Source: a virus
Virus record (IMG/VR): IMGVR_UViG_3300030108_005940
Coordinates: 60,776-124,775 of that record
DNA length: 64,000 nucleotides
Strand: one strand, 5' to 3'
In this document: in pieces, positions 8,154 through 44,169 of the stretch
Numbering within the stretch: the stretch's first letter is position 1
Layout: every line of letters begins with the position of its first letter
Made by a program: the position numbers and the translations under genes
Notes under the pieces: model-generated
Told to the model about the DNA's origin: nothing
Seen by the model: the letters and a program-made list of their open reading frames with translations, nothing else
Database searches by the model: none

Positions 8154-8193
8154 AATATTATTTTAATTAAAAATTTTAATAATCAACTGCTTT

Positions 8194-8505: not shown

Positions 8506-8513
8506 GTGTCTAT

Positions 8514-11087: not shown

Positions 11088-11109
11088 CTATCTTATTATA
11101 ATAAGATAG
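11088..11109. promoter_or_regulatory. perfect palindrome abutting the gp43 start codon
   Basis: A perfect 22-bp inverted repeat with arms CTATCTTATTA / TAATAAGATAG. It lies directly before the ATG at 11087 and between the glycosyltransferase stop and gp43. In RNA it can fold as a 9-bp stem with a UAUA loop touching the AUG. T4 gp43 represses its own translation by binding a hairpin at its ribosome-binding site, so an equivalent operator is plausible. A TATAAT element is embedded in it (11095-11100 on the minus strand), so it could instead be a promoter. Confidence 0.55.
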
Positions 11110-11112
11110 TTC

Positions 11113-12339: not shown

Positions 12340-12356
12340 ATTATGTATTATATAGT

Positions 12357-28801: not shown

Positions 28802-29524
28802 ATGAGAATTGCATTTTCAGGGACAGGGAATAGTGGTAAAACAACACTTGTAAAAAGTTTTTTATATACATGGGATAATTATATAACCCCAAAAAAGACT
28901 TATAGGGAAGTTTTACAAGAAGAAAATTTACCTCATTCTTCAAACACTACTACTGATACACAAGAAAAAATATTGAACTTTATGATTGATCAAGTTCAAT
29001 CTGCAGATAAAGACAGTAATATTATATATGATAGATGTCCATTAGATAATATTGTTTATTCTTTATGGTGTAATGAAAAGAAGATTGATGGTTTTTCCAA
29101 TTCATATATTCAAGAGCAAATTGAACTTATGAAAGAGTCAATGAGATTTTTAGATATTATATTTTTATGTAGATTTGATGAATCACAGTCTATTGAAGAT
29201 GATGGAGTAAGAGATATTGATAAAAATTTTATAACAGAGATTGATAATATATTTCATTCAATGTATTTACAATATTCTCAAAACCCTGAATCAGATGTGT
29301 TTTTTCCAAAGGGTGATTCACCTTGTATAATTGAATTACCTCACAAAGGACAAGAGAGAATAGATCTTATACAGCAATATATTACTGCAGAAGGTGGTAT
29401 GTATGGAGATGATGAATCAATTTTTAATAATATAGATGAATTAGAGCAGTTAGTAACTCAACAAAAAATGGCTTTAGATCAAGAAGAGAAAGAAAGAGAA
29501 CTATACAAGAAGTTTGGGTTATGA
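28802..29524 (+). CDS. P-loop NTPase (AAA_28/NadR-like)
   Basis: A 240-residue protein with Walker A FSGTGNSGKTT (residues 5-15), a Walker B-like IIYDRCPLDNIVY (about 74-86) and a lid-like GVRDIDKNF. The layout resembles nucleoside/nucleotide kinases and the NadR ATPase. The C-terminal ~50 residues are charged and probably coiled (LEQLVTQQKMALDQEEKERE). The substrate is unknown. It overlaps the next glycosyltransferase by 4 nt and so heads the surface-sugar operon. Confidence 0.65.
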   Translation: MRIAFSGTGNSGKTTLVKSFLYTWDNYITPKKTYREVLQEENLPHSSNTTTDTQEKILNFMIDQVQSADKDSNIIYDRCPLDNIVYSLWCNEKKIDGFSNSYIQEQIELMKESMRFLDIIFLCRFDESQSIEDDGVRDIDKNFITEIDNIFHSMYLQYSQNPESDVFFPKGDSPCIIELPHKGQERIDLIQQYITAEGGMYGDDESIFNNIDELEQLVTQQKMALDQEEKERELYKKFGL

Positions 29525-30303
29525 GTGAAAAGATAGGTGTAGGAATTATTACATGTAATCGTCCAGAATTCTTTAAAAAATGTAGAGAATCAATTAAAGA
29601 AGAGTGGTGTGATAGTATTGTTGTTGTAAATGATGGTAAAGGCCCTCTTTATAATAGCAGAGCAGCGGTTATACAAACAAAAGGTGGTGAAGGTGTTGGT
29701 AAGGCAAAAAACATTGCAATTGAATATCTATTAGAAGAAGGTTGCAATTATGTTATTTTAGTTGAAGATGATATGATGTTTAAAGATAACCTATTTAAAC
29801 AATATATTAAAGCTTATAAGGAGACAGGTATACATCACTTTATGTTTGCTTATCACGGACCGGCAAATAAAGCTGGAATAAGTGGTGGTAAGCCTGTTCC
29901 ACGTAAGCTTATTGATTATAATAACATTCAAATTGCTTTAAACCAACATTGTGTAGGTGCTGTTTGTTTTTACACAAAAGAGTGCTTAGAAGATGTAGGT
30001 ATATATGATGAAAATTATACTAACGCGTTTGAGCATGTAGACCACTCTTATCAATTAGCTAAAAAGAAATATTGTACCCCGTATTGGTGGTGGCCAGATA
30101 TTAGTAATAGTCTTGATTATGTTGAAGAACAAGCTTGCTCAGAGAATAGTTCTGCTATTAGACCGAGAAAAGACTGGCAATCTAATATTCAAGATGCATG
30201 GAGTAAATTTACAGATAAACATGGAGTGGGTCCTACATCAGTACCTGATACTGAGATAGATGCAGTTATAAAAACCTTAAAAGAAATTAAAAATGTCAAA
30301 TAG
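29521..30303 (+). CDS. family 2 glycosyltransferase (GT-A)
   Basis: A 260-residue GT-A enzyme. VGIITCNRPEFFKKC (6-20) is the nucleotide-binding start, and YVILVEDDMMF (about 78-88) gives the D-x-D motif. FEHVDHSYQLAKKKY is the acceptor-side ED-like loop. No membrane segment is seen. It probably transfers one sugar in building an oligosaccharide. It overlaps both neighbours (4 nt upstream, 11 nt downstream). Confidence 0.8.
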   Translation: MSEKIGVGIITCNRPEFFKKCRESIKEEWCDSIVVVNDGKGPLYNSRAAVIQTKGGEGVGKAKNIAIEYLLEEGCNYVILVEDDMMFKDNLFKQYIKAYKETGIHHFMFAYHGPANKAGISGGKPVPRKLIDYNNIQIALNQHCVGAVCFYTKECLEDVGIYDENYTNAFEHVDHSYQLAKKKYCTPYWWWPDISNSLDYVEEQACSENSSAIRPRKDWQSNIQDAWSKFTDKHGVGPTSVPDTEIDAVIKTLKEIKNVK

Positions 30304-30724: not shown

Positions 30725-31019
30725 AGATTATTATAAACATTATTTATCTTTACATCAAAATAAAATTTGTAGAAGGTTGCATGTATTAGGTCAAGTAATG
30801 ACAATATTATACTTAATATTAGTTATATATTTATTAACAATAAGCTTATTCTTTCTACCGTTGGTGTTGTTATTACCATTTATTGTGTACCCGTTTGCTT
30901 GGTCTGGTCACTTTTTTTTTGAAAAGAACAAACCCGCAGCTTTTAAACATCCAATAAAAGCTAAAGTATGTGATTGGATTATGTTATTTGATATTATTAG
31001 AGGGAAGGTAAAATTTTAA
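30714..31019 (+). CDS. Mpo1/DUF962-like small membrane protein
   Basis: A 101-residue protein. I place the start at ATG 30714; a longer in-frame start at 30615 would overlap the previous gene deeply. KDYYKHYLSLHQNKICRRLH (4-23) and YPFAWSGHFFFEKNKPAAFKHP (65-86, His-rich) match the Mpo1-like/DUF962 family, whose yeast member is an Fe-dependent dioxygenase of 2-hydroxy fatty acids. Between them is a hydrophobic segment of about 40 residues, likely two membrane passes. It could modify lipid at the host membrane. Confidence 0.7.
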   Translation: MKIKDYYKHYLSLHQNKICRRLHVLGQVMTILYLILVIYLLTISLFFLPLVLLLPFIVYPFAWSGHFFFEKNKPAAFKHPIKAKVCDWIMLFDIIRGKVKF

Positions 31020-31543
31020 TGACACAATTTAATATAAATGAAATTAAAGGACTAACTCTATTTACTCCGGAGCTTTATAAGGATGAGAGGGGTCATAATT
31101 TTGAGTCTTACGATAGTTTAAAGTTTAAAGAAGAAATTTCATCAGATAAATATTTGCAGGTTAGTTTTAAAGACAAAGAGTTTGTACTAGATACGTTTTC
31201 AAAATCCAGGTGGCCAGTATTTAGAGGGTTACATGGAGATAATAAGACATGGAAACTTATTTCTTGTTTATACGGTAAAATATATCTTGTTGTAGCACAA
31301 CCATCAACAAAAAAATGGGCAGAATTTTATTTAGATAATAAAACAAGACAGCAAGTATTAGTACCGGCTGATTGCGTTAATGGACATTATTGTATCAGTC
31401 ACGAGTGTCTATTTAGTTATAAAATGACTGAACACTATGAAGGCGCAGATAATCAATATACTGTTAAATGGCATGATAAAAGCTATAATTTTAACTGGCC
31501 ATTCGATCTAAACAAAGCTATAATATCTAATAGAGATAATTAA
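31019..31543 (+). CDS. RmlC-like sugar epimerase
   Basis: A 174-residue cupin-fold enzyme of the dTDP-4-dehydrorhamnose 3,5-epimerase family. KDERGHNFES (21-30), VFRGLHGDNKTWKLISCLYG (64-83, with RGLH) and VPADCVNGHYCIS are the family's core marks. It acts on nucleotide-linked 4-keto-6-deoxy sugars. The partner dehydratase and glucose-1-phosphate thymidylyltransferase are not in the window, so a host precursor or genes elsewhere must supply substrate. Start and previous stop share one base (TAATG). Confidence 0.8.
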   Translation: MTQFNINEIKGLTLFTPELYKDERGHNFESYDSLKFKEEISSDKYLQVSFKDKEFVLDTFSKSRWPVFRGLHGDNKTWKLISCLYGKIYLVVAQPSTKKWAEFYLDNKTRQQVLVPADCVNGHYCISHECLFSYKMTEHYEGADNQYTVKWHDKSYNFNWPFDLNKAIISNRDN

Positions 31544-31546
31544 TTT

Positions 31547-32491
31547 ATGAAATCAAAAAGAGTATTAATTACCGGAGGTGCAGGTTACTTAGGAAGTATA
31601 TTGGTAGGTTCATTACTGGATAAAAAATATAAGGTAACCGTTATTGATAATCTTACATACAAGCAACAAAGCTTAACTTCGTATTGCTATAATAAGGACT
31701 TTACCTTTATTAAAGGCGATATTAGAAATATTACAACATTAGTTAATTTAAAAGATTTTGATATTATAATTCCACTAGCTGCAATCGTAGGCATGCCAGC
31801 ATGTGATAATAATCCTGAGTTAGCTACTGAAGTTAATTTAGAACAAATTATTACAATTGTTGAAAAAACTTCTAAAGATCAACAATTAATAATTCCTAAT
31901 ACTAACTCTCAATACGGTTCCTCAGAAAATATTATTACTGAAGAGAGTCCGTTTAAACCTCTCTCACATTATGCAAAAACTAAATGTCATGCAGAAACTG
32001 CTGTAATAGATAGTGATCGATCTGGAGTTGCTTTAAGATTAGCAACTGTATTTGGTTTATCACCACGTATGAGATTAGACCTTCTTGTAAATGATTTTGT
32101 TTACCGCGCGGTTACAGATAAATTATTAGTACTTTTTCAGTCTTCTTTTAAGAGAAATTATATACATGTAAGAGATATAGCTAATACCTTCTTATTTGTA
32201 ATAGAAAATTATGATAAATGTGTAGGAGAACCATTTAATGTTGGTTTATCTACAGCAAATTTAAGTAAATTAGAGCTAGCGCAATCTATTAAAAAATATA
32301 TACCCGAGTTAGTTATAATAGAAGAAGAGTTTACTGAAGATTTTGATAAACGAAACTATATTGTATCAAATGAAAAGCTAGAAAATTTAGGATGGAGACC
32401 TAAATTTACAATAGAAGATGGTATTGTTGAACTTATTAAAGGTTATGAGTTAATTACCACGTTTAAAAATAAAGATTTTACAAATTTATAA
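31547..32491 (+). CDS. NAD-dependent epimerase/dehydratase (extended SDR)
   Basis: A 314-residue extended SDR enzyme acting on nucleotide sugars. ITGGAGYLGSILVGSLL (residues 7-23) is the NAD-binding G-x-x-G-x-x-G loop; VIDNLTYKQQ follows, and HYAKTKCHAE supplies the catalytic Tyr-x-x-x-Lys. YIHVRDIANTF is the sugar-binding mark. It could be an epimerase or a 4-reductase for the deoxysugar made by the neighbouring genes. Confidence 0.85.
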   Translation: MKSKRVLITGGAGYLGSILVGSLLDKKYKVTVIDNLTYKQQSLTSYCYNKDFTFIKGDIRNITTLVNLKDFDIIIPLAAIVGMPACDNNPELATEVNLEQIITIVEKTSKDQQLIIPNTNSQYGSSENIITEESPFKPLSHYAKTKCHAETAVIDSDRSGVALRLATVFGLSPRMRLDLLVNDFVYRAVTDKLLVLFQSSFKRNYIHVRDIANTFLFVIENYDKCVGEPFNVGLSTANLSKLELAQSIKKYIPELVIIEEEFTEDFDKRNYIVSNEKLENLGWRPKFTIEDGIVELIKGYELITTFKNKDFTNL

Positions 32492-34026
32492 TGGATGTAC
32501 TGTTTATAACACCAGGTAATACAAAGGGTATATATCAAGACTTAGCAACAACGTATGCGGCTATTGAACCACCAACCTGGGCTTTATTATTAGCTGAATC
32601 GTGCAGATCTATTGGATATAAAGTAGCAATATGTGATGCAAATGCTGAGCAATTAAATGCTGATGATGTTCTCGAAAGAGTTAAGGAACTTAAACCGCGG
32701 TTAGTTTGTTTTGTTGTATATGGTCAAAATGTTAATGCTGGTACAGTTAATATGTCAGGCTCTGTATACCTTTCTAACCATTTAAAAGCTAATAATATTA
32801 AAACACCAATTGCTTATGTCGGATCACATGTACAAGCTTTACCAATTAAAGCATTACGTGACGAACCTTCGATAGATTTTTGTTTTACTAACGAAGGTGT
32901 TTATGCTTTAAGAAATATTTTATCTTTAGATGAGATTGATATAAACAATTTAGAAGATATTAAAGGAATTGCTTGGAGAAAGAATGGCGAACCTACATTT
33001 AATCAATCCGAAGCAGTTGTTCCGCGAGATAGAATGGATATTGACTTACCAGGTTATGCTTGGGACCTTTTACCATATAAAGATAAGCCGCTTGACTTAT
33101 ATAGAGCACCAATGTGGCATGCTGAATATGATGAAGAAAAAAGATCTCCGTATGCTGCAATACAAACTTCTTTAGGTTGTCAATTTGGATGTAACTTCTG
33201 CATGATAAACATTTTAAATCGAAATGATGAAGAGGAAGTAGGTGTAGCTGGTAATTATAGCTTAATGAGACATTGGTCTCCGGAGTTTATTATTAATGAA
33301 TTTGATAAACTAGCTGAATTAGGCGTTTATACTATAAAAATAACAGATGAGTTATTTTTGTTTAATAAAAAATATTATGAACCTCTTTGCAAAGCTTTAA
33401 GTGAGCGCCCATATGTAGACAAATTAACAATGTGGGCTTATTCACGGATCGATACTGTGAGAAGACCTGATTTACTTAAGACTGTTAGAGCTGCTGGTAT
33501 CAAATGGTTAGCTTTAGGTATTGAAAGCGGTGAAAAAGAAGTAAGATTAGAAGTAGCAAAAGGTAAGTTTGAAGAAGTAGATATAGAAAAGGTAGTTAGA
33601 CAAATACACGAAGCTGATATTAACGTAATGGGTAATTTTATCTTTGGTTTACCGGGTGATACTCAAGCGTCTATGCGTAAAACTCTTGATTTAAGTAAAA
33701 GATTATGTACAATGGGATGGAATGCTTATGCTGCAATGCCTCTACCAGGTAGTCAGTTATATAAAGATGCATTAGATAAAGGATATAGTTTACCAAAGAC
33801 ATATGAAGACTATTCTTTCTTTGGATATAATACCTTACCGTCACCGACAGATAAATGTACTGCAGGTGAGATTCTAAAATTTAGAGATGATGCTTATAAT
33901 GAATATCATAATTACAAACCTTTTTTAAATCTTGTAAAAGAAAAATATGGTCAAAAGCAAGTAGATAATATTAAAGAGATGACAAAAGTAAAACTTAAAA
34001 GAAAATTATATAGTGATGCTAACTAG
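32491..34026 (+). CDS. B12-binding radical SAM enzyme
   Basis: A 511-residue protein. The N-terminal ~150 residues form a cobalamin-binding Rossmann domain (VCFVVYGQNVNA...). SLGCQFGCNFCMIN (about 228-241) is the CX3CX2C cluster motif, and the SAM barrel follows (LALGIESGEKEVR, FIFGLPGDTQASM). Class B enzymes do methyl transfers and rearrangements, including on sugars. There is a 14-nt overlap with the next gene. Substrate unknown. Confidence 0.85.
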   Translation: MDVLFITPGNTKGIYQDLATTYAAIEPPTWALLLAESCRSIGYKVAICDANAEQLNADDVLERVKELKPRLVCFVVYGQNVNAGTVNMSGSVYLSNHLKANNIKTPIAYVGSHVQALPIKALRDEPSIDFCFTNEGVYALRNILSLDEIDINNLEDIKGIAWRKNGEPTFNQSEAVVPRDRMDIDLPGYAWDLLPYKDKPLDLYRAPMWHAEYDEEKRSPYAAIQTSLGCQFGCNFCMINILNRNDEEEVGVAGNYSLMRHWSPEFIINEFDKLAELGVYTIKITDELFLFNKKYYEPLCKALSERPYVDKLTMWAYSRIDTVRRPDLLKTVRAAGIKWLALGIESGEKEVRLEVAKGKFEEVDIEKVVRQIHEADINVMGNFIFGLPGDTQASMRKTLDLSKRLCTMGWNAYAAMPLPGSQLYKDALDKGYSLPKTYEDYSFFGYNTLPSPTDKCTAGEILKFRDDAYNEYHNYKPFLNLVKEKYGQKQVDNIKEMTKVKLKRKLYSDAN

Positions 34027-34618
34027 TAAAGATTTAATTAATTTTGAAGAAGATATAGCTGAAGAGTTTAATAATTCAAAAATTAAAGCTCCTGTACATC
34101 TTTATTCAGGTAACGAAGATGAATGTATTAAAATATTTAAAGATATAAACAAAGATGATTGGGTATTATGTACTTGGAGAAGTCATTATCAATGTTTACT
34201 TAAAGGTGTACCGCCAGAACAAGTTAAATCAGAGATTATGTCAGGTCGCTCTATATCTTTAAACTTTCCAGAATATAGAGTATTTTCTTCAGCTATCGTT
34301 ACCGGTATATTACCTATAAGTGTCGGTCTGGCGTTAGATATTAAACGAAGTGGCGGTACAAATAAAGTATATTGCTTTGTTGGTGATATGACTGCTTTAA
34401 CAGGCTCTTTTGATGAGTGTTTAAGATACTCAAAAGCCCATGACTTACCTATTAAATTTATTATTGAGGACAACGGTAAGTCTGTCTGTACTGACACAAA
34501 AGAAGTTTGGTGTGCAAAAGATCACCCATACGATGGAATTAATGATGACTATGTATATCATTATACATATGAAACTAAATGGCCGCATGCTGGTGCTGGT
34601 CAACGTGTACAATTTTAA
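34013..34618 (+). CDS. TPP enzyme, E1-alpha/transketolase N-terminal subunit
   Basis: A 201-residue TPP-binding subunit. WVLCTWRSHYQCLLKGVPPEQ (50-70) resembles the E1-alpha start, and CFVGDMTALTGSFDECLRYS (about 126-145) with FIIEDNGKS is the TPP/Mg motif GDG-x-N adapted as GDM...EDN. It lacks the pyrimidine half, which is the next gene. A two-subunit E1-like enzyme next to a deoxysugar dehydratase recalls AviB1/AviB2 and YerE, which add a two-carbon unit to a sugar. Confidence 0.75.
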   Translation: MMLTSKDLINFEEDIAEEFNNSKIKAPVHLYSGNEDECIKIFKDINKDDWVLCTWRSHYQCLLKGVPPEQVKSEIMSGRSISLNFPEYRVFSSAIVTGILPISVGLALDIKRSGGTNKVYCFVGDMTALTGSFDECLRYSKAHDLPIKFIIEDNGKSVCTDTKEVWCAKDHPYDGINDDYVYHYTYETKWPHAGAGQRVQF

Positions 34619-34620
34619 AT

Positions 34621-35151
34621 ATGAAATATTTTGATGAATTAAAACGATCTATGGAGATGCTGGCTGAGCATCCTAAGACTTTATTTTTAGGTCAAGCTGT
34701 TGAGTGCGCTGGTACAGGGATGACTAATACACTTAAAGATGTATCAAATGAAAAAAAACTTGAATTACCGGTATGTGAAGATTTACAAATGGGTATGACA
34801 AATGGAATTGCTCTTGCAGGTAAAATACCGGTAAGTATATTTCCAAGATGGAATTTTTTACTGTTAGGTACAAATCAGATTGTAAATCATTTGGATAAAT
34901 TTCCAATGATATCAGATTTTAAAACTAAAGCTATTATTAGAACAGGAGTTGGATCAGTAAGACCTTTACATCCTCATCATCAACATACAGGTGATTATAC
35001 GGAAGCATTTTCCAGCATGTGTAAAAATATAGAAGTTATTCGTCTAGATGAACCAGAGGATATCTTTCCTGCATATACAAAAGCGTTGCTTCGCGAAGAT
35101 GGAAAATCGACTATACTAGTAGAGTGGGGTGATTACTATAACGAAAAATGA
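34621..35151 (+). CDS. TPP enzyme, E1-beta/transketolase C-terminal subunit
   Basis: A 176-residue partner of the preceding gene, starting at the ATG at 34621, 2 nt after its stop. It carries the pyrimidine-binding domain (LPVCEDLQMGMTNGIALAGK with the conserved Glu, residues 46-65) and RTGVGSVRPLHPHHQHTGD. Together the two make one transketolase/E1-type enzyme of about 377 residues, shorter than any normal transketolase because the C-terminal domain is missing. It overlaps the DegT-like gene by 4 nt. Confidence 0.75.
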   Translation: MKYFDELKRSMEMLAEHPKTLFLGQAVECAGTGMTNTLKDVSNEKKLELPVCEDLQMGMTNGIALAGKIPVSIFPRWNFLLLGTNQIVNHLDKFPMISDFKTKAIIRTGVGSVRPLHPHHQHTGDYTEAFSSMCKNIEVIRLDEPEDIFPAYTKALLREDGKSTILVEWGDYYNEK

Positions 35152-36359
35152 ATTATAATATACCATTAATGTCAGATAATATAACTCGTGAAGATGTTAA
35201 CGAGTTAGTAAATTTTTTACAGCAAGATCCAATTCCAAGACTAACTAACGGTCCAAAAGTAGAAGAATTTGAAGCAAAGTGGTCAGAATGGTTGGGTGTA
35301 AAACATAGCGTATTTGTAAACTCTGGTTCAAGTGCAAATTATATGACTATGCAACTTTTACAATATAAGTATGGTCCTTGTGAAGTTATAGTTCCACCGC
35401 TTACTTGGGTTTCAGATGTTGCTAGTGTTTTAAACACTGGACATAACCCTGTGTTTGTAGATATAAATTTATCTAATTTAAGCTTTGATATTCAAAAACT
35501 AAAACAAGCTATTACTACAAGAACAAAAGCTATATTTCTAACGCATGTATTAGGTCTAAACGGTCTTACTGATGAACTTATACAACTTTGCAAAGAACAC
35601 GATCTTCTATTAATAGAAGATGTATGCGAGTCACATGGAGCTACTTTTAAAAATAAAAAAGCTGGTTCAATAGGCGATGTTAGTAATTTTAGTTTTTACT
35701 TTGCACACCACCTGTCTACGATTGAAGGAGGAATGGTGTGTACTGATAACGATGAATTTTATGATATCTTGAGATTTAGTCGCTCCCATGGTATGGTTAG
35801 AGAGTGTAAGAGTGAAGACTTTAAACAACAAGTTAAACTTGATCACCCCGACTTAAATCCGGATTTTATATTTCTATCACCAGCGTATAATTTTAGAAGT
35901 ACAGAACTTAACGCAGTTTTAGGTTTATCGCAAATTAAATCTCTTGATAGTAATAATGATATACGTCGCGATAATTTCGAATATTTTTTATCTAAATTAG
36001 ATTCAACAAAATATGTTACTACTTTAGATACTAAAGGTCAAAGTAATTATGCTTTTATTGTTATAATGAAAGAAGCTGATATAACGCAACGTAATAAAGT
36101 CGAAAGTATGCTTAAATCAAATAATATAGAATTTAGACGTGGTTTATCTGGTGGTGGTAATCAACTTAGACAGCCATATATTAGTAGACATGCGGAAAAA
36201 ATAGGTAGGTCATGGCAAGTAGGAATGACTGATCAAGCATTACAGCAAAGCTTTGCAAATATTGAGCACGTGCATAATTATAGTTGGTACATCGGTAATT
36301 ATCCTTCATTAGAAAGGGAAAAAATTACTAATCTTATAACACTGCTTAATAATGTCTAA
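35148..36359 (+). CDS. ColD/E1-type sugar 3-dehydratase (DegT fold) candidate
   Basis: A 403-residue DegT/DnrJ/EryC1/StrS-fold protein. VNSGSSANYMTM (58-69) binds the cofactor phosphate, and IEDVCESHGA (156-165) contacts the pyridine nitrogen. At the Schiff-base position the sequence is FYFAHHLSTIEGGM: His187/His188 replace the usual Lys. That change marks the PMP-dependent 3-dehydratases ColD and E1 (DdhC/AscC), which make 3,6-dideoxy sugars. The catalytic His is seen; the substrate is inferred. Confidence 0.8.
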   Translation: MNYNIPLMSDNITREDVNELVNFLQQDPIPRLTNGPKVEEFEAKWSEWLGVKHSVFVNSGSSANYMTMQLLQYKYGPCEVIVPPLTWVSDVASVLNTGHNPVFVDINLSNLSFDIQKLKQAITTRTKAIFLTHVLGLNGLTDELIQLCKEHDLLLIEDVCESHGATFKNKKAGSIGDVSNFSFYFAHHLSTIEGGMVCTDNDEFYDILRFSRSHGMVRECKSEDFKQQVKLDHPDLNPDFIFLSPAYNFRSTELNAVLGLSQIKSLDSNNDIRRDNFEYFLSKLDSTKYVTTLDTKGQSNYAFIVIMKEADITQRNKVESMLKSNNIEFRRGLSGGGNQLRQPYISRHAEKIGRSWQVGMTDQALQQSFANIEHVHNYSWYIGNYPSLEREKITNLITLLNNV

Positions 36360-37296
36360 TAACAAATATCTTATTATATATAACATATGTGAAATCGGTA
36401 AGAGAAATTTTGAGTGGTATAGTAAGTGTATTAATAATTTACTTAAACTTAATCATAAAAAATTTCATGTAGCAGTAAGTGGTTGTAGAGTTTCACAGCA
36501 AACAAAAGATCAGCTTTATAACGAATTTAAAAATAAAGTAACATTTTGCTATACAGAAAATTTTCTTTCTGTTAATATAACTTTTAATTTGACTGTTTTA
36601 AAATGTGTTGAAAGATTTAACGAATTTACCGGTTATGTGTATATTGACTCAGGGGTAAATACAGAGGATAATTTTAATCTACTAAATGAAATAGATGAAA
36701 GAGTTGAAACTAAAAAGTTTAGTATGATTAGTTTTCAAACTGATACAGACCACGGTCATCATTGGTTTAAAAAAGATCATGTTAATAACCCTTATATTAA
36801 AGAAGAAGATTTTATAATGCCTGTAGGTAAATGCTGTAATTTACACGTTTCATATTTTTCAAATGATTTATTAAAAACTTTTGGAAAACTTATACCAGAT
36901 ATATTTAACGCATATTGTACAGAGTCAGTATTTTCTTTTTTAAATGCTAGTATACAAAAGCAATGGGTAATTATTAAAGATATAATTCTTACTCATATTA
37001 AAGAAAAAGATGGAGCTACTCTCAGTTATGATCATGTAGGACCTCGTCAAGTACCATGGAATAATTTATATGGTTGTGCTGATATGGAAAAAATAGTAAA
37101 AGATCCTAAAGCTTATGAAGTTGGGTTGGGTTATGAAGAGTTAGGAGAAGTTTTAATACATAATGCAGACTTATATACATCAGAAGGACATGTTAAGAAC
37201 AATACTTTGAAAGATTATATTAAAGAAAAACTCTTTCTTTCGAAGGATCAGTTAGATTATAACCACATTTTACATTCATTTATACCAGCAAAATGA
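36352..37296 (+). CDS. putative glycosyltransferase
   Basis: A 314-residue protein with a GT-A-like opening (YLIIYNICEIGKRNFEWYSKC) and a YVYIDSGVNTEDN strand that may give the metal site. The middle has HGHHWFKKD and the C-terminal half has no known motif. It fits an atypical glycosyltransferase from its place between DegT-like and family 2 glycosyltransferase genes (overlaps 8 and 4 nt). Sequence support is weak. Confidence 0.5.
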   Translation: MSNNKYLIIYNICEIGKRNFEWYSKCINNLLKLNHKKFHVAVSGCRVSQQTKDQLYNEFKNKVTFCYTENFLSVNITFNLTVLKCVERFNEFTGYVYIDSGVNTEDNFNLLNEIDERVETKKFSMISFQTDTDHGHHWFKKDHVNNPYIKEEDFIMPVGKCCNLHVSYFSNDLLKTFGKLIPDIFNAYCTESVFSFLNASIQKQWVIIKDIILTHIKEKDGATLSYDHVGPRQVPWNNLYGCADMEKIVKDPKAYEVGLGYEELGEVLIHNADLYTSEGHVKNNTLKDYIKEKLFLSKDQLDYNHILHSFIPAK

Positions 37297-38054
37297 TATC
37301 AATAATTATACCTACTAAGAATAGAGTTGAAAATCTTAAGAAGGTTTTAAAGACTTTAAATGATAATACATTACAGCCAAAACAGGTTGAAGTTATATTT
37401 TATGTTGATAGTGATGATAATGATACTATCGACTTTATAAAATCTGGAAATATTAATACACACTTAGATAAAATACCCGGAACAGCTATTGTTAATAAGG
37501 ATAAGCCAAAATTAGCTGATATGTATAACCGTGCTTTTAGTAAATGTAGAGGTGATATTATAATGTACTCAGCAGATGATGTACACTTTAAAACTAAAAA
37601 TTGGGATATTTTAATAGCTGAAGAATTTAATCGTTATTCAGATAAGGTATGTTTGGTATTTGGACCAGATGGTATGCAACCTAACGGTACTCTAGCCACT
37701 CATGGGTTTTTAAGTAGAAGAGCAATTGAGCAAGTTGGTTATGTGCACCCGGTAGGAATGGGTTATAATTATTCAGATAACTGGTTAACTTACATATATA
37801 GAAAGTTAGGCCGATTATGTTACACACCGGTATATTTTGAGCATTGTCATTGGGGATCTGGAAAAGCAGAATATGATCAAACCTATAAAACGGGTTCAGA
37901 TGCCCCGCATGATGATAGTATTGATTTATGGAGAGGTAGTTTAGAACAAAGAACTAAAGATATTAATATACTTAAACAGATTATTACATCTGGTCCTTTA
38001 GGAAATTCGAATAAAGAAAATATTAAAACTATATATAACTTAGAAACAGATTAA
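37293..38054 (+). CDS. family 2 glycosyltransferase
   Basis: A 253-residue GT-A enzyme. SIIIPTKNRVENLKKVLKTL (3-22) is the classic GT2 start, and DIIMYSADDVHF (about 88-99) supplies the D-D-V metal motif. NWLTYIYRKLGR follows. It overlaps the previous gene by 4 nt and is followed after 1 nt by the kinase gene. The donor is probably a nucleotide sugar; the acceptor is unknown. Confidence 0.85.
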   Translation: MISIIIPTKNRVENLKKVLKTLNDNTLQPKQVEVIFYVDSDDNDTIDFIKSGNINTHLDKIPGTAIVNKDKPKLADMYNRAFSKCRGDIIMYSADDVHFKTKNWDILIAEEFNRYSDKVCLVFGPDGMQPNGTLATHGFLSRRAIEQVGYVHPVGMGYNYSDNWLTYIYRKLGRLCYTPVYFEHCHWGSGKAEYDQTYKTGSDAPHDDSIDLWRGSLEQRTKDINILKQIITSGPLGNSNKENIKTIYNLETD

Positions 38055-38055
38055 T

Positions 38056-38808
38056 ATGAAACCTATATTATTACTTGGCGATTCTTGTATAGATAAATTT
38101 GTATATTGTAAATGTGAACGTCTTTGCCCAGAGGCACCGGTGCCCTTATTAGACATATTACATGTTGAAGAAAATAGAGGAATGGCAGGTAATGTGCATA
38201 ATAATTTATTAGCTTTAAAATGTGAAGCAGAGTTTTACACAAATTTAAATTATAAAAATATAGTTAAAACAAGATATGTAGATCATAAAACCAATCATAT
38301 GTTTATTCGTATAGATACAAAAGCAGAATTAAATACAGCATATAAGGATTATAGCGCGCAAATTAATTTAGAAGATTATTCTGCTGTGGTGATTTCAGAT
38401 TATGATAAAGGTTTTATTACAGAGGAAGAAATAGAATTTATTTCTTACAATCACCCTATTACATTTTTAGATACAAAAAAAATTATAGGCGACTGGGCAA
38501 AAAATATTAAATTTATTAAAATTAATAGAAAGGAATTTAAAGAATCAGAAAAAAGCCTTACAAATAAAAAGAATATTATAACGACACTAGGTTCAGGAGG
38601 AGCTATATATAGAGGTATACAATACGATGTTAAAGATGTAGAGATAAAAGATCTTTCTGGTGCTGGTGATACTTTTTTAGCTGGTTTAGTATGTAAATAT
38701 TTAAGAACTAACAATATTGAAGAGAGTATAAATTTTGCAAATGAATGCGCTACTGATGTAGTGCAGAAGCAAGGTGTAACTGTAATTAGCAAATATTTCG
38801 CTTTATGA
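38056..38808 (+). CDS. HldE N-domain-like sugar kinase (PfkB family)
   Basis: A 250-residue PfkB-fold kinase. GDSCIDKFVYCKCERLCPEA (8-27) with PVPLLDI matches the start of HldE/RfaE, where G-D-x-x-x-D and S-P-E-A-P-V are fixed. GMAGNVHNN corresponds to the G-G-A-A-N-V loop. DLSGAGDTFLAGL (about 202-214) is the catalytic motif with Asp. It is about 60 residues shorter than HldE's kinase domain. The other half (cytidylyltransferase) is at 43765, so the bifunctional enzyme is split. It likely phosphorylates a heptose phosphate. Confidence 0.8.
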   Translation: MKPILLLGDSCIDKFVYCKCERLCPEAPVPLLDILHVEENRGMAGNVHNNLLALKCEAEFYTNLNYKNIVKTRYVDHKTNHMFIRIDTKAELNTAYKDYSAQINLEDYSAVVISDYDKGFITEEEIEFISYNHPITFLDTKKIIGDWAKNIKFIKINRKEFKESEKSLTNKKNIITTLGSGGAIYRGIQYDVKDVEIKDLSGAGDTFLAGLVCKYLRTNNIEESINFANECATDVVQKQGVTVISKYFAL

Positions 38809-39728
38809 AATTATATAGATATCCTCAAGCGTCACCTCATAATATTGATGACGGTCCATATCGTAATTGTATACCGTTAGGTATAGATGGTCTGACACAA
38901 CATTGTACAATTGTTAATAATCCTAATGAAGCAGATTATTTTCATATTGGTCAAATTCGTGAAGATAGTAATATAAAATTATACGAATCTGATGGTAGTG
39001 AGTTTGAATTTTTTAAAGGTAATGAACATAAACATATTGTAGATATGGAAGGTGAAGGAGGTTGGGAGATACCAGAGTGGCTTCGTAAGTGTATCTTAAC
39101 GACTATGGGGCCTTTAAAGAGGTTTGATTATTATAAACTTTTTACAAGACCTTGTTTTTCCTCTTTAATGATGGACTGTTTAAAAGATGAACGTGTTTTT
39201 GATTTTCCAAAAAAATCCGGTTTTGGTTTTAGGGGATGTATTAATCACCCTACAAGACAAGTATTATTTGAAGCATTGAAAGAACCAACATTAAATGAAA
39301 ACCGTGTACGTCGCGAAGCTTATATGACAGCTGGGTGGTTTGGACCTGCTCCATCCCGATCTGAACCTCATTTAATTTTTGAAGAGCTTATGCTAAAACA
39401 TCCCTTATCTCTTTGTCCACGTGGAGCAGGTATAGCATCTACACGTGTATGGGAAACATGCGCGTATGGTAGAGTACCAGTAATTGTTTCAAATGAAGAT
39501 TTTTATCAAGTAGGTGAAGATCAATATGACACGTCATTTATGTTTAAAGTAATTGGTGATATGTCACCAAAAGATATGGCAAATGAATTAACTGCAATAT
39601 ATAATACAAGTATAGATGAATTAAAACAACGTGGAGACTTAGCAAAAAAGTACTTTAATGACGTATTAAAAGAATACTTTAAAGACCCGACGTTGTTCTT
39701 TATAAACTGGTTAAATAAAAATGCTTAA
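38805..39728 (+). CDS. exostosin-like glycosyltransferase (GT47-type)
   Basis: A 307-residue protein. SLCPRGAGIASTRVWETCAYGRVPVIVS (about 205-232) matches the exostosin motif (P-x-G-x-x-x-x-x-R-x-x-E-x-x-x-x-G-x-I-P-V). The C-terminal part continues with a nucleotide-binding fold. The first 100 residues are less conserved. Sugar transfer to a growing glycan is expected. It overlaps the kinase gene by 4 nt and the radical SAM gene by 8 nt. Confidence 0.75.
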   Translation: MKLYRYPQASPHNIDDGPYRNCIPLGIDGLTQHCTIVNNPNEADYFHIGQIREDSNIKLYESDGSEFEFFKGNEHKHIVDMEGEGGWEIPEWLRKCILTTMGPLKRFDYYKLFTRPCFSSLMMDCLKDERVFDFPKKSGFGFRGCINHPTRQVLFEALKEPTLNENRVRREAYMTAGWFGPAPSRSEPHLIFEELMLKHPLSLCPRGAGIASTRVWETCAYGRVPVIVSNEDFYQVGEDQYDTSFMFKVIGDMSPKDMANELTAIYNTSIDELKQRGDLAKKYFNDVLKEYFKDPTLFFINWLNKNA

Positions 39729-40944
39729 TAAAGAAGAAATACTAACATCAGGTAAAATATTTAACCCTGCAGCTAAAATTTATGCAAATGCAGATAGGGT
39801 AATAGATTATTTAGATGATAAAAACCCGGCCCCAGTTCTAGTAGAGATAGATCCGAGTAATACATGTAATCATGGATGTTACTTTTGTATATCTTCCTAT
39901 ATACATTTACCTGAATCGAAAAATCTTGAAACATATGATAAGACAGTTATGCCTAGAGATATATTGTTAGGAGCATGTAAAGATTTTGTTGATATGGGTG
40001 TGAGGGCCATTAACTGGACAGGAGGCGGCGAACCAACAATTAATAAACACTTAAAAGAAGCAATTGCATACATTGGTGAAAATTCAGATATTAAAATGGG
40101 TATTTTTACTAATGGTACATTGCTTGATAGATGGGATATGTTTGAAACAATGGTTGATAACATGACATGGGTAAGATTCTCTATTGATGCCGGTACACCG
40201 GAAACTTATAACAATATTAGACGTGCTAAAGGTAATCAAGGTTGGGATAAGATGGTGAGCAACTTAAATAAGTTGATTAAAGTTAACAAGGATAAGGGTA
40301 AAAAAATTGGCATTGGTGTTGGTTTTGTTATCACACCTGACACGTGTCATGAGGTTGTAGACTTTGCAAAATTCTTTGCAGATGTAGATGTAGATTATTG
40401 TCAATATAAACCTGAAATTGTAAATCGAGAGAGAGAAGACGGTGTACAAAGAGATTTAGATTTTTGGAATAAAAATGTAGAGCCTCAGCTAGATGCCGCT
40501 AAAGAAATTCTTGGGCATAAATTTCAAATTAATGGGTATAAATTAAGCGACTTAATAGAAGATAGGTCTTTATTCGGTCGTAGGTATAAAAAATGTATGG
40601 GATCTCAAGTGCAGCCCTGTGTAGGAGCTGATGGAAATGTTTACGTGTGTACTAATCACCGTGGATATAAGCAATATAGCTATGGATCTTTACATGAAAA
40701 ATCCTTTAAAGAGGTCTGGGACGATGTACAAGAGAGACAACGTATAATGCATCAAATAGATAACGTTGAATGCTTTAAAAATTGTACACAACTATGTAAG
40801 CCTCATGAGAGTAATAAAGCTGTATGGGATATACATGAAGCTTATAATAGTGTTGAAGGTGAGGCAAGAGATGCAGTCAAAAAAGAACTACTCGAGCTAC
40901 AAGAAGAAATTAAAGAGAATATAATTCATAGTGAATTTATATGA
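39721..40944 (+). CDS. radical SAM/SPASM enzyme
   Basis: A 407-residue enzyme. SNTCNHGCYFCISSY (about 47-61) is the CX3CX2C cluster motif, INWTGGGEPTINKH is the SAM-binding GGE motif, and IFTNGTLLD follows. The C-terminal part has several Cys (KKCMGSQVQPCVGADGNVYVC and a CFKNCTQLCKPH set) of a SPASM auxiliary-cluster domain. Such enzymes modify peptides or sugars. It is the second radical SAM gene of the operon. Substrate unknown. Confidence 0.85.
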   Translation: MLNKEEILTSGKIFNPAAKIYANADRVIDYLDDKNPAPVLVEIDPSNTCNHGCYFCISSYIHLPESKNLETYDKTVMPRDILLGACKDFVDMGVRAINWTGGGEPTINKHLKEAIAYIGENSDIKMGIFTNGTLLDRWDMFETMVDNMTWVRFSIDAGTPETYNNIRRAKGNQGWDKMVSNLNKLIKVNKDKGKKIGIGVGFVITPDTCHEVVDFAKFFADVDVDYCQYKPEIVNREREDGVQRDLDFWNKNVEPQLDAAKEILGHKFQINGYKLSDLIEDRSLFGRRYKKCMGSQVQPCVGADGNVYVCTNHRGYKQYSYGSLHEKSFKEVWDDVQERQRIMHQIDNVECFKNCTQLCKPHESNKAVWDIHEAYNSVEGEARDAVKKELLELQEEIKENIIHSEFI

Positions 40945-41462
40945 TTGTATTGCAAAATGGTAATGGGCAACTTGGTAAAGAGTTAGAATATAAAATTAGA
41001 TATATTAGCCCAGGGTTTAGATTATCACCAGAAGTCGTTTTCATATACCATACCTGGGATATGAGAGATAAAAATGATAAAAAAGCTCAGAAAAATTGCT
41101 ATAAACAGTTTAAAAAATTTGTAGATACAAACAAAGAGCATAAAATAATTTTTACGTCTACTTATTCAGAGCAAAATAATTTTTACAATTTTTATAAGCA
41201 AAAAGCAGGGGGATATTTATTAGCAAATCACAAACAAGGTAAAGTAATTAAGCTTCCTGTTTTATTAGGAAAGGGTGTATGTCAAGATTTAAAAGAAAAT
41301 AAATGTGAACCTTACGGTGTTATAGAGTTGATGTCGCTTCATGAAGCTGCAGATGAAATTTTACGAATAGCTTTCGAAGATACTAACAATAAAGAATTTC
41401 GTTTGCATGGCACTCAAATACCAGCTAAGTTTGTACAAGAATTATTGCAATTTAATATTTAG
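40941..41462 (+). CDS. degenerate SDR/RmlD-like protein
   Basis: A 173-residue protein. MIVLQNGNGQLGKELEYKIR resembles the RmlD nucleotide-binding start (G-x-x-G-Q-L-G), but the rest of the cofactor-binding half is shortened. IIFTSTYSEQNNFYNFYKQK recalls the Ser...Tyr-x-x-x-Lys active site, though spacing differs. It closes the operon after a 4-nt overlap. It may be a reductase or a non-catalytic partner of the epimerases. Confidence 0.4.
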   Translation: MIVLQNGNGQLGKELEYKIRYISPGFRLSPEVVFIYHTWDMRDKNDKKAQKNCYKQFKKFVDTNKEHKIIFTSTYSEQNNFYNFYKQKAGGYLLANHKQGKVIKLPVLLGKGVCQDLKENKCEPYGVIELMSLHEAADEILRIAFEDTNNKEFRLHGTQIPAKFVQELLQFNI

Positions 41463-41477
41463 ATATTATTATATATT

Positions 41478-42002
41478 ATGGCTGATTTTTCTAAATTTGA
41501 TTCTTCTGTTATAACAGATTTTACTCCATATGTAACTGATATACCAAATTTTCCGATCCCAGGTGTTACATTTAAAGATATACAGCCATTATTAGCCGAT
41601 CCCAAGGCTTTTAGACAAGCAATATTTGAAATGTTTGTTAAATTTGAAACATATATGGATTATTGGGTAGGTATTGATTCGAGGGGATTTATTTTTGCCT
41701 CGGCATTATCGCAATATTCTAATAAAGGGTTGAAGCTTATTAGAAAAAAAGATAAACTTCCTCCACCGGTAGAATCAAAAACTTATGATCTTGAATACGG
41801 TAATGATACGATTCAAATGCAACCTGGTAAAGGTAAAGTTATTATAGTTGATGATGTTTATGCTACAGGTGGAACCATGGATGCTGCAGAAGAGTTATGC
41901 AAACAAGCCGGTTATGAGGTGTTAGGTAAATTAGTTTTTATTGACTTAGCTTTTTTACACGGTTCAACTGATGTTAGGAGTGTTATAAAATATGATAGTT
42001 GA
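41478..42002 (+). CDS. apt: adenine phosphoribosyltransferase
   Basis: A 174-residue enzyme making AMP from adenine and PRPP. Residues 21-36 (DIPNFPIPGVTFKDIQ) are the APRT N-terminal hood. GIDSRGFIFASALSQ (66-80) and VIIVDDVYATGGTMDAAEEL (about 119-138, the PRPP-binding loop) are full matches. It may recycle adenine released by host DNA or SAM breakdown. It lies 15 nt after the operon's last gene. The gap before it is AT-rich, without a TATAAATA box. Confidence 0.93.
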   Translation: MADFSKFDSSVITDFTPYVTDIPNFPIPGVTFKDIQPLLADPKAFRQAIFEMFVKFETYMDYWVGIDSRGFIFASALSQYSNKGLKLIRKKDKLPPPVESKTYDLEYGNDTIQMQPGKGKVIIVDDVYATGGTMDAAEELCKQAGYEVLGKLVFIDLAFLHGSTDVRSVIKYDS

Positions 42003-42041
42003 GTTTATATTATTCTCAGTATAATATTATATAATAAATTT

Positions 42042-42491
42042 ATGAAAAAAATAACACTTATATATGCAAGTATGACAGGTAACGCTGAGTTTGTAGCAGA
42101 CAACGCTAAGAGTGCACTAGAGGATGCTGGTCATACTGTTAATGAGTTCTGCTTAGATGATAATGAGGAAATTAATTTTTTACATCAAGAAGCAGATTGT
42201 ATTGTAGGAATAACTAGTACATGGGGTGAGGGTGAACCACCAGATGAAGCTGTACCTTTTTTTGAAAGTTTACGAAATTCTGAGCCACTAGGTATAGATA
42301 AATCTATTGCTGTTCTTGGCCTAGGAGATAGTTCATATGATATTTTTTGTGGTTGTGGAAAAGAGCTAGAAAGAGAACTTATAAGACATGGTGGTACACC
42401 ATTATTAGAAAGAGTCGATTGTGATATTGATTACGAAGAAGATGCAGATAATTGGGTAGAGAGTTTAGTTGAAAAAATAAATGAGGCCTGA
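42042..42491 (+). CDS. flavodoxin-like protein
   Basis: A 149-residue FMN-binding electron carrier. YASMTGNAEFVADNAK (8-23) is the phosphate loop, STWGEGEPPDEAVPFF is the 60s loop, and VLGLGDSSYDIFCGCGKELE (about 90-109) is the 90s loop. It is close to the flavodoxin domain of sulfite reductase/nitric oxide synthase reductases. It could feed electrons to the radical SAM enzymes (QueE and the two in the sugar operon), which need reductant. It overlaps the cupin gene by 11 nt. Confidence 0.88.
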   Translation: MKKITLIYASMTGNAEFVADNAKSALEDAGHTVNEFCLDDNEEINFLHQEADCIVGITSTWGEGEPPDEAVPFFESLRNSEPLGIDKSIAVLGLGDSSYDIFCGCGKELERELIRHGGTPLLERVDCDIDYEEDADNWVESLVEKINEA

Positions 42492-42864
42492 AATTATACA
42501 GTATAAAGACCACCCTAAGGGATGGGGCAACGAAAGGTGGATAGTAAATAAAGAAAAATATTGTCTAAAGATTTTATCATTTAAAAAAAATAGCTCTTTT
42601 TCAATGCACTACCATATTGAAAAAGAAGAAACGTGGTATGTAGCTAAAGGTAGATTGGAGCTGTCATACTATAATTTAACAAACGCGAATCGTGTTACAA
42701 AAACTATTAATGAAGGAATGGTTGTTGATATTAAGCCTAATATTCCACATAAACTAAAAGCATTAGAAGATTCTGAAATTATAGAAGTAAGTACACAACA
42801 CTTTGAACATGATAGTTACAGAGTAGAGCCTGGGGATAGTCAAAAAAATGAAACTACTAATTGA
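42481..42864 (+). CDS. cupin-domain protein
   Basis: A 127-residue single-cupin protein. SFSMHYHIEKEETWYVAKGRLELSY holds the H-x-H...E metal set, and DIKPNIPHKLKALED the second motif's His. The arrangement resembles the C-terminal cupin of mannose-6-phosphate isomerase/GDP-mannose pyrophosphorylase and sugar-isomerase cupins. A sugar isomerase or a small-molecule sensor are possible. It overlaps flavodoxin and HAD genes. Confidence 0.7.
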   Translation: MRPEIIQYKDHPKGWGNERWIVNKEKYCLKILSFKKNSSFSMHYHIEKEETWYVAKGRLELSYYNLTNANRVTKTINEGMVVDIKPNIPHKLKALEDSEIIEVSTQHFEHDSYRVEPGDSQKNETTN

Positions 42865-43186: not shown

Positions 43187-43768
43187 ATGATTATCGAACA
43201 AGGTGTATATGATGGTAAGTTAATTCATGAGAGATTTGCTTATAAATTTTTTCGTAAGGATGTTGCCGGTGAAGGTAATATTGTAGCGTTTAGGGCTCCG
43301 ATGTATGTGGAAGATGCTTTAATTGATCTAGAAGATTCGCTAGAAAATGACTTTATACATAGTCAGGATGCAGTTAATTTTTGTTGGGAGATTCCTGGCT
43401 TGTGTCCTCTAGGTGCTGTATCATTTCAGAGATTATTTAATACAGGAGTTGCTAATATTTTATCTGGTTTTATTAATAAGGGAATTATGGTTGATGGTGA
43501 TGATCTATTAGTTCAAGATGAGTTCCTTGGAACTGATAAGCAAGTAAGAGAATCTGGTAAAGTAAGTGTATCTATTACGTATTCTAAAGATAATGTAGCA
43601 TTAGGTCATACTGGTATTAATGTTGTAGCAGGAGATAAGGCACCTCCTTTTGCTTATTCATCCAACTTAACAGCAAAGCAAATTAAAACATTTAGCAAGA
43701 CTGTTATTGATTACTTTAATACCGAAGTAAGAGATCAGTTCGTTGCTACGACAAAAATTATTGTATGA
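43187..43768 (+). CDS. DUF366-like protein
   Basis: A 193-residue protein. ERFAYKFFRKDVAGEGNIVAF and APMYVEDALIDLEDSLENDFI resemble the DUF366/COG2029 pattern (K-F-F-R ... G-N-I-V ... E-D-x-x), a family proposed to share the biotin/lipoate ligase fold. GLCPLGAVSFQRLFNTG follows. The activity is unknown. It overlaps the cytidylyltransferase by 4 nt. Confidence 0.45.
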   Translation: MIIEQGVYDGKLIHERFAYKFFRKDVAGEGNIVAFRAPMYVEDALIDLEDSLENDFIHSQDAVNFCWEIPGLCPLGAVSFQRLFNTGVANILSGFINKGIMVDGDDLLVQDEFLGTDKQVRESGKVSVSITYSKDNVALGHTGINVVAGDKAPPFAYSSNLTAKQIKTFSKTVIDYFNTEVRDQFVATTKIIV

Positions 43769-44169
43769 AAAAAATATTTACGAATGGTTGTTTTGATATT
43801 TTACATGTCGGTCATTTACAACTATTTGAATATGCAAAAAGTTTCGGTTACCTTTACGTTGGTGTCGATTCAGATGACAAAGTAAAGAAAGATAAGGGTG
43901 AAGATAGACCCTATAATAAATTATCTGATAGAATAAAAATGCTTCAATCGCTACGTTTTGTAGATGAAGTTCGTAGTTTTGATAGTTCCCAGGGTTTACG
44001 AGATTTAATTAAAGAAATTAACCCCGATATAATGATAATAGGTTCCGATTGGCGAGGTAAACCTGTCATTGGACAGGAACATGCAAAGGAACTTAAATTT
44101 TTTGAAAGAATTAAAGGGTATTCTACAACTGGTATATTAGAATATGACTACTATCGTTTACGTAAATAA
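43765..44169 (+). CDS. HldE C-domain-like cytidylyl/adenylyltransferase
   Basis: A 134-residue nucleotidyltransferase. TNGCFDILHVGHLQLFEYAK (6-25) has the G-C-F-D...H-x-G-H signature of HldE C-domain and glycerol-3-phosphate cytidylyltransferase. DDKVKKDKGEDRPYNKLSDR is the K-x-x-x-R-P...R segment, and YSTTGIL is the ISTT-like loop. With the kinase at 38056 it would complete the HldE pair that makes ADP-heptose-type sugar nucleotides. Confidence 0.88.
   Translation: MKKIFTNGCFDILHVGHLQLFEYAKSFGYLYVGVDSDDKVKKDKGEDRPYNKLSDRIKMLQSLRFVDEVRSFDSSQGLRDLIKEINPDIMIIGSDWRGKPVIGQEHAKELKFFERIKGYSTTGILEYDYYRLRK

Follow-up and report, generated by a model that had tools for sequence, protein, structure and literature searches.

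What does a phage make with a DegT-fold enzyme that carries histidine where the lysine binding pyridoxal 5'-phosphate (PLP) is expected, and with a two-part thiamin diphosphate (ThDP) enzyme encoded directly before it? The question is raised by a stretch of 64,000 nucleotides of viral DNA (IMG/VR record IMGVR_UViG_3300030108_005940, positions 60,776 to 124,775), here called the window, to which all coordinates refer unless another locus is named. The whole record is 154.6 kb long and may be a fragment or an incomplete genome. It matches phage polymerase, portal, tail-sheath-stabiliser and major-head families, with a portal match of about 29 % to T4-like phages, and judged from these matches the carrier of the cassette is a T4-like phage. 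A previous sequence-only reading of this DNA had predicted a branched 3-deoxy sugar. As to the kind of product, a ColD-type dehydratase and a ThDP enzyme of the same pathway, this prediction stands; as to the sugar it is probably wrong, and we predict a heptose instead of a 6-deoxyhexose. For a nucleotide-activated C-branched 3-deoxy-heptose as the product of the cassette, which requires deoxygenation, heptose and branching to hold jointly, we see slightly less than an even chance; the three components are graded separately below.

A DegT-fold enzyme with histidine at the Schiff-base position

The DegT protein (35148–36359, plus strand, 403 aa; PF01041, E 2e-71) finds its best solved relatives in chains of ColD (2gms, 3b8x, 2r0t and 3gr9; E values from 2.6e-55 to 1.2e-53). 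Residues 187 and 188 are both His, and in the alignments with the PDB chains His187 falls on the ColD active-site column, where 2gms has His, 3b8x Asn and 2r0t Lys; we take the latter two to be mutants of ColD His188, 188 presumably being the number of the active-site histidine. The alignment to ColD His188, proposed earlier as a check, places His and no Lys at the Schiff-base position of the phage protein.

Searching viral contigs with the DegT alignment as query gave at least 587 relatives, and the best 80 of these are the DegT-His loci of all counts given here; the Lys-type control consists of loci anchored on a Lys-type viral DegT gene (best 80 of 96). The His-His pair is kept in 11 of 11 rows of the DegT family alignment and in all 80 DegT-His anchors, and the aligned column holds Lys in 80 of the 80 control anchors. 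The replacement of the PLP lysine by His187/188 is thus borne out, and the reading as a Lys-type aminotransferase is excluded by the alignment. The active-site residue and the closest relatives together support the assignment to the ColD/E1-type C3-dehydratases, and a ColD-type C3 deoxygenation is very probably the reaction catalysed. The score against the NCBIfam model PRK15407 (RfbH) is 216.6 bits, below the curated cut-off of 423. A second His-type DegT protein with the motif SFYPAHH is found in 12 of the DegT-His loci (L196, 10740–12047, and L190, 15609–16922, both on the minus strand, and ten more); these proteins are mostly about 436–444 aa long and mostly encoded on the opposite strand.

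An unusually small two-part ThDP enzyme

The first of the two genes preceding DegT (34013–34618, plus strand, 201 aa, with an ATG at 34016 as alternative start) matches E1_dh (PF00676, positions 6–171 of 300, E 8.8e-15) and encodes the PP subunit, and the second (34621–35151, plus strand, 176 aa) matches Transket_pyr (PF02779, 2e-7) and encodes the PYR subunit; the latter gene was scanned from 34579, and a start at 34621 fits its relatives. Each protein is about half the size of E1 alpha or E1 beta, and the C-terminal transketolase domain of E1 beta is absent from the PYR subunit. The usual motif is GDG...N, instead of which the PP chain has GDM...EDN. Glu53 of PYR, invariant in the relatives and aligned with a Glu of E1 beta chains, is likely to be the catalytic Glu.

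AlphaFold models of the two subunits (mean pLDDT 89.2 for PP and 84.4 for PYR) gave the same picture. The best fold match of PP is the E1 alpha chain 3exe_A (E 1.1e-10, over about half of the target), and the 50 listed matches are all E1 alpha chains; that of PYR is the E1 beta chain 1um9_B (1.0e-10, 174 alignment columns of a 323-aa target), with split transketolase (3.6e-6) and AzcB/AzcC (1.6e-5) at lower ranks. Family matches and models thus agree with the earlier description of the pair as an E1-alpha/beta-like enzyme, and on these models it is an unusually small E1-type ThDP enzyme. The suggested likeness to YerE was not sustained: YerE is of the decarboxylase type and the pair is E1-type in fold, so that it resembles the branching enzymes of the alpha-ketoacid-dehydrogenase type. 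The E1 of a pyruvate dehydrogenase complex was also considered and rejected, with no match to E2 (PF00198) in the possibly incomplete record.

So short a pair might instead be a simple decarboxylase of the sulfopyruvate or AzcB/AzcC imino-acid type, which would furnish an aldehyde or amine substituent and no C-branch. The AzcB/AzcC chains are equally short and were retrieved by the PYR fold search, albeit well under E1 beta, and the exchange of the pair for acetolactate-synthase-like and transketolase-like types (see below) suggests C–C bond formation, so we give a simple decarboxylase little credence. Branching of the sugar by the ThDP pair seems to us the reasonably probable function.

Association of the ThDP and DegT genes

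A ThDP gene lies within the flank of 73 of the 80 DegT-His loci and of only 3 of the 80 Lys-type loci, and those 3 also contain a DegT-His module, in support of the earlier proposal that the two enzymes act in the same pathway. The 73 loci comprise 41 with the minimal pair, 13 with full E1 alpha/beta, 8 with a split transketolase, 7 with an acetolactate-synthase-like enzyme and 4 with two types. Among the loci without a ThDP gene, L208, L209 and L238 have a minimal pair about 14 kb upstream on the same contigs (loci L070–L072), and in L189, L192, L226 and L227 the contig ends 1.1–1.7 kb before DegT. When the DegT proteins are clustered at 90 % identity, 48 of the 50 clusters have a ThDP gene. 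A stricter control used the 80 best of at least 579 loci found with the heptose-type kinase as anchor; there, ThDP genes are present in 9 of the 10 loci with DegT-His and in 15 of the 70 without it (Fisher p 4.6e-5, a guide only, given that the loci share ancestry and are not independent); the exception among the ten, L335, lies on the contig of L072 and has the pair further upstream. DegT-His is almost always accompanied by ThDP, and the converse is not true.

Could the two genes nevertheless stand side by side in a variable sugar island without being functionally linked? Marine myophages do carry variable islands, such as the host-recognition clusters of pelagimyophages (PMC7029224), and the shared ancestry of the counted loci points the same way. 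The contrast of 73 with 3 loci, its spread over 48 of the 50 clusters and its persistence within the kinase loci argue against mere proximity. So does the second His-type DegT, since in the kinase set ThDP accompanies it in none of 6 SFYPAHH-type loci, although 12 such genes occur in the DegT-His loci. We regard independent neighbours as very improbable.

Exchange of ThDP enzymes in a retained slot

Four types of ThDP enzyme occupy the slot: the minimal E1, full E1 alpha/beta, split transketolase and an acetolactate-synthase-like enzyme (named after the best NCBIfam hit of one representative each, all below the curated cut-offs, with the minimal pair assigned from Pfam and NCBIfam scans). On a quickly built tree of the 80 DegT anchors, the 69 single-type rows require 18 or more changes of ThDP type, counted without a shuffled-label comparison. 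DegT genes more than 90 % identical are sometimes found beside different types: one cluster at 90 % identity unites L179 and L180, which have split transketolase, with L184 and L187, which have E1, and another unites the E1-containing L236 and L239 with L241 and L242, which have the minimal pair. The ThDP slot is retained and its occupant exchanged. The superfamilies met in the viral slot are those that PMC12247030 gives for the branching of keto-sugars, namely YerE-like decarboxylases, enzymes of the alpha-ketoacid dehydrogenase type and, put forward as candidates, split transketolases.

Split transketolases and acetolactate-synthase-like enzymes each occur in 9 of the 80 DegT-His loci when two-type loci are counted. 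The former raise the alternative that the ThDP enzyme is a transketolase supplying sedoheptulose-7-phosphate, the final sugar then being an unbranched 3-deoxy-heptose. The ThDP genes of the 15 heptose-kinase loci lacking DegT-His, 4 of which are split transketolases, would fit such a supply. The window enzyme itself fits it poorly, with E1 ranked over split transketolase in the PYR fold search and only E1 alpha chains among the listed PP matches. Moreover, the same slot is filled by E1 and acetolactate-synthase-like types, neither of which is known to make sedoheptulose-7-phosphate, and ThDP tracks the His-type DegT above the kinase alone (9/10 against 15/70). Supply of sedoheptulose-7-phosphate is therefore an improbable role, and we return to branching of the sugar.

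The swapping of ThDP enzymes may be a sign that a sugar of the phage or host surface is being varied. A more ambitious and decidedly tentative proposal, which we think likelier to be wrong than right, is a combinatorial viral sugar factory in which a fixed 3-deoxy-4-keto-heptose scaffold is served by four swappable ThDP carboligases, each adding a different branch; in the window this role would fall to the smallest E1-type enzyme. In 4 of the 80 DegT-His loci (for example L076, 8001–9154 and 12996–14713, and L196, 3089–7013) a single island contains two ThDP architectures, which may serve two different branches or sugars. Full E1 alpha/beta is accompanied by a DJ-1/PfpI-like gene in 12 of its 14 loci (for example L184, 4002–4559, and L213, 5053–5592), and none of the remaining 66 loci has one.

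The sugar

The short-chain dehydrogenase/reductase (SDR) gene of the cassette (31547–32491, plus strand) matches 6vo6/6vo8 at 1.3e-99, the next best PDB hit being at 7.3e-23. The PDB names these chains merely 'putative sugar-nucleotide epimerase/dehydratase'; we take 6vo6 to be Cj1427 of Campylobacter jejuni, an alpha-ketoglutarate-dependent GDP-heptose C4-dehydrogenase, an identity that is assumed here. The motif of the window SDR is NTNSQYG, without the acidic residue that 4,6-dehydratases carry in their catalytic T-x-x motif, and a 4,6-dehydratase was accordingly rejected. The form T/S-N-S-x-YG recurs in 60 of the 64 Cj1427-like SDRs of DegT-His loci, and the cyanophage GDP-mannose 4,6-dehydratase (GMD) has TSE. 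The SDR is thus probably a Cj1427-like NDP-heptose C4-dehydrogenase.

The neighbouring RmlC-like protein, a predicted C3/C5 epimerase (31019–31543, plus strand; PF00908, 1.6e-27), matches 7ang, 7an4, 7m14 and 8dco at 1.3e-24 to 1.8e-23. Its eight best chains include four named GDP-4-keto-heptose epimerases as well as 7ang, 7an4 and 7ani, listed as C. jejuni heptose epimerases (PMC7949155). Further along the same strand, a PfkB kinase (38056–38808; PF00294) and a nucleotidyltransferase (43765–44169) have as their best NCBIfam hits the two HldE domains (TIGR02198, 1.6e-34, and TIGR02199, 4.1e-31, both below the curated cut-offs), pointing to a heptose-7-phosphate kinase and to heptose activation, respectively. 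In many relatives a GHMP kinase gene lies between PYR and DegT, and the three tested best match HddA, a heptose-7-phosphate kinase, below the cut-off. Within about 8 kb, a SAR116 contig (L089) holds the SDR, DegT-His and ThDP-pair genes as well as genes that by best hits are GmhA-, HddA- and HddC-like. Of the 80 DegT-His genes, 76 have a kinase of the HddA or HldE type in their neighbourhood, 64 an SDR like Cj1427 (identity to viral queries 40 % or higher), 57 a B12 radical SAM gene and 47 an RmlC-like gene.

There is a biochemical precedent for such a combination: Cj1427 followed by a ColD-type C3-dehydratase yields GDP-D-glycero-3-deoxy-4-keto-heptose in vitro, the authors referring to novel GDP-heptose modifications, with the two enzymes taken from different serotypes, HS:2 and HS:5 (PMC10680097). 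In C. jejuni HS:5 the ColD-type C3-dehydratase makes a 3,6-dideoxy-heptose (PMC10440746).

The sequence-only reading had named CDP- or GDP-4-keto-6-deoxyhexose as the substrate, which would give a branched 3,6-dideoxyhexose of the yersiniose type. In its favour, a ColD-type DegT is combined with a ThDP enzyme, ColD acts on GDP-4-keto-6-deoxymannose (PMC10440746), and GMD-like genes occur near 13 of the 80 DegT-His genes. The SDR of the window is the single PF01370 match of the whole record, in which, within the limits of its possible incompleteness, no PF00483 (NTP_transferase-type) nucleotidylyltransferase was matched either; the supply of a 4-keto-6-deoxyhexose would therefore fall to the host or to a stretch of the phage genome that the record lacks. 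With a second PF01370 SDR missing from the record, plain colitose is not favoured for the window. Because the SDR and the epimerase resemble the C. jejuni GDP-heptose enzymes, a 3-deoxy-heptose is likelier than a 3,6-dideoxyhexose, which we consider unlikely; the substrate originally named is not supported, and heptose is the probable sugar.

Several observations weigh against a branched 3-deoxy-heptose. No SIS_2 (GmhA-type) protein was matched in the possibly incomplete record, so heptose-7-phosphate must come from elsewhere, and the best NCBIfam hits for the kinases, the nucleotidyltransferases and GmhA are all below their curated cut-offs. The nucleotidyltransferase of the window is HldE-like, an ADP-type enzyme in Escherichia coli, whereas Cj1427 uses GDP-heptose. 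The GMD-like genes near 13 DegT-His genes (7 at 37 % identity or more) compare with 6 of 80 in the Lys-type control, and some members may therefore use a 6-deoxy substrate. A Cj1427-like SDR is missing from the flank in 16 of the 80 DegT-His loci, and in the kinase-anchored set it is present in just 3 of the 10 loci with DegT-His as against 15 of the 70 without. Finally, the ThDP genes in 15 of 70 heptose-kinase loci lacking DegT-His mean that ThDP is not exclusive to 3-deoxy-keto sugars.

Radical SAM enzymes and other genes of the cassette

As noted earlier, the RmlC-like, SDR and B12 radical SAM genes share an operon with the DegT gene: they lie upstream on the same strand, with gaps of a few bp or overlaps. 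The B12-binding radical SAM enzyme (32491–34026, plus strand; PF02310 and PF04055, CxxxCxxC present), whose gene immediately precedes the ThDP pair in many loci, has its best PDB match in 6fd2, apramycin biosynthetic oxidoreductase 4 (3e-15), and scores 70.2 bits against NF033070, the family model of the AprD4 radical SAM diol-dehydratase, far from the cut-off of 500. It may catalyse a methylation or an AprD4-like deoxygenation.

The remaining genes are all on the plus strand. Before the epimerase gene lies one for a family-2-like glycosyltransferase (29521–30303; PF00535, 5.5e-5). DegT is followed by a protein without Pfam match (36352–37296), with relatives near 17 of the 80 DegT-His genes, a family 2 glycosyltransferase (37293–38054; PF00535, 4e-9), the PfkB kinase and a possible glycosyltransferase (38805–39728; weak RXYLT1_C match, PF24785, 1.3e-4, below cut-off). 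Then come a second radical SAM enzyme, of the SPASM type (39721–40944; PF04055, PF13186), a short protein without family match (40941–41462), a phosphoribosyltransferase possibly salvaging adenine for the radical SAM step (41478–42002; PF00156), a flavodoxin as a possible electron donor to the radical SAM enzymes (42042–42491; PF00258, 4.6e-26) and a cupin (42481–42864; PF07883, 2.2e-7).

Genes that could serve radical SAM enzymes are seen in several sugar islands (window, 41478–42491; L179, 9160–11099; L184, 10825–11373). An MTA/SAH-nucleosidase-like gene is found near 19 and a phosphoribosyltransferase near 17 of the 80 DegT-His genes, each with 0 of 80 in the Lys-type control. Flavodoxin is near only one, whose locus is a twin of the window itself, and flavin reductase near 4, which counts against a fixed helper kit. 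On archaeal and Desulfobacterales contigs (L091–L093; L091 and L093 were tested) the minimal PP/PYR pair adjoins SPASM radical SAM genes, a type that the window has as well.

Distribution in viruses and cells

Relatives of PP number 83 in viral contigs (best 80 kept) and 8 in phage records. Of the latter, 6 come from three phages that are each entered twice, and the remaining 2, at 28 % identity, are an ordinary acetoin-dehydrogenase-like gene. Among the best 80 matches of the genome-contig scan, 6 contigs reach at least 39 % identity, one of which, 7.9 kb long, is possibly viral, and the other 74 reach at most 33 %. The class to which the SAR116 genome belongs was searched in 289 genomes: the minimal PYR (E ≤ 1e-25) and the DegT family (E ≤ 1e-110) were each found in one, this being the SAR116 genome at the centre of the comparison; the DegT family at the same threshold was found in 0 of 194 genomes in the phylum of a Prochlorococcus genome, an empty result that is uninformative on its own. 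Among the matches listed, the smallest E1-type ThDP form is mostly viral; its scarcity in cells is not proven. In the cyanophages P-TIM68 and S-SM2, PP and PYR are fused in one gene near a heptose-type kinase, with no DegT-His match in the stretch fetched.

A possible pathway and its significance

In the pathway that we propose, the host would supply heptose-7-phosphate, which the HldE-like kinase would phosphorylate and the HldE-like nucleotidyltransferase would activate. The activated sugar would be oxidised at C4 by the Cj1427-like SDR and epimerised at C5 and/or C3 by the RmlC-like enzyme. The His-type DegT, with pyridoxamine 5'-phosphate/PLP and glutamate, would then remove the C3 hydroxyl by the ColD mechanism, giving a 3-deoxy-4-keto-heptose. 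The E1-type pair would decarboxylate a 2-oxo acid, probably pyruvate, and add the acyl carbanion to the C4 ketone, leaving a branch on a tertiary alcohol. The B12 radical SAM enzyme might methylate or deoxygenate the sugar or its branch, and the glycosyltransferases of the operon would pass the sugar to an acceptor. Protein families, His substitution, gene order and co-occurrence are observed; substrates, order of steps, product and acceptor we infer.

Bacterial lipopolysaccharide and antibiotics are known to contain C-branched deoxysugars. Among the open-licence titles listed, we noticed none that reports a viral pathway to such a sugar, and a 2025 review refers to viruses a single time, naming them as somewhere yet to be explored (PMC12247030). 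If the proposal is true, phages make a new class of sugar, the reason for the large sugar islands of marine phages becomes testable with a defined product, and the ThDP swap within a fixed pathway amounts to a natural experiment in donor choice. The combinatorial proposal, if true, would imply a family of branched 3-deoxy-heptoses undescribed in nature that vary virion or host-surface glycans. The small two-part ThDP enzymes also form a set of interest for C–C bond biocatalysis.

Comparison with known systems

The DegT fold with His for Lys is common to the phage protein and the ColD/E1-type C3-dehydratases of colitose and ascarylose. The partners of the phage enzyme are a ThDP enzyme and a Cj1427-like SDR, where those systems have a 4,6-dehydratase and a C4-reductase. 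A ColD-type enzyme working on 4-keto-heptose nucleotides exists in the C3-dehydratase of C. jejuni HS:5 (PMC10440746), and the GDP-heptose modification enzymes of C. jejuni (Cj1427 and the C3/C5 epimerases) are the nearest solved relatives of the phage SDR and RmlC-like protein. Compared with C. jejuni, the phage operon adds DegT-His, the ThDP pair and the B12 radical SAM enzyme, and a separate C4-reductase was not identified.

Another phage-borne His-type DegT (SFYFGHHMTT), 38 % identical to that of the window, is encoded by the cyanophages S-CAM7 and ACG-2014f, where it is annotated as an aminotransferase or CDP-4-keto-6-deoxy-D-glucose-3-dehydrase. Unlike in the window, it stands in a row with a GMD or GMD-like gene and a fucose-synthetase- or epimerase-like gene (L327 of S-CAM7, 10091–13149; L328 of ACG-2014f, 8059–11176), and none of the four ThDP types was matched in 10–12 kb on each side. 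By its gene content this three-gene row looks like a colitose pathway.

For the ThDP pair, AzcB/AzcC form a comparably short two-chain enzyme, a decarboxylase. YerE (yersiniose) and the split transketolases proposed for miharamycin have the same proposed role, and the window enzyme is neither: it has two chains, in contrast to the single-chain, acetolactate-synthase-like architecture of YerE, and both of these types occur in the cassettes of relatives (acetolactate-synthase-like in L197, split transketolase in L179). By class, the likeness is to the alphaKADH2 branching enzymes of aldgamycin, kibdelomycin (KbDH) and avilamycin, in which a two-part E1-type ThDP enzyme is likewise encoded in a deoxysugar cluster (PMC12247030), whereas the phage pair consists of PP and PYR domains only, is set among heptose-type genes and is borne by a virus.

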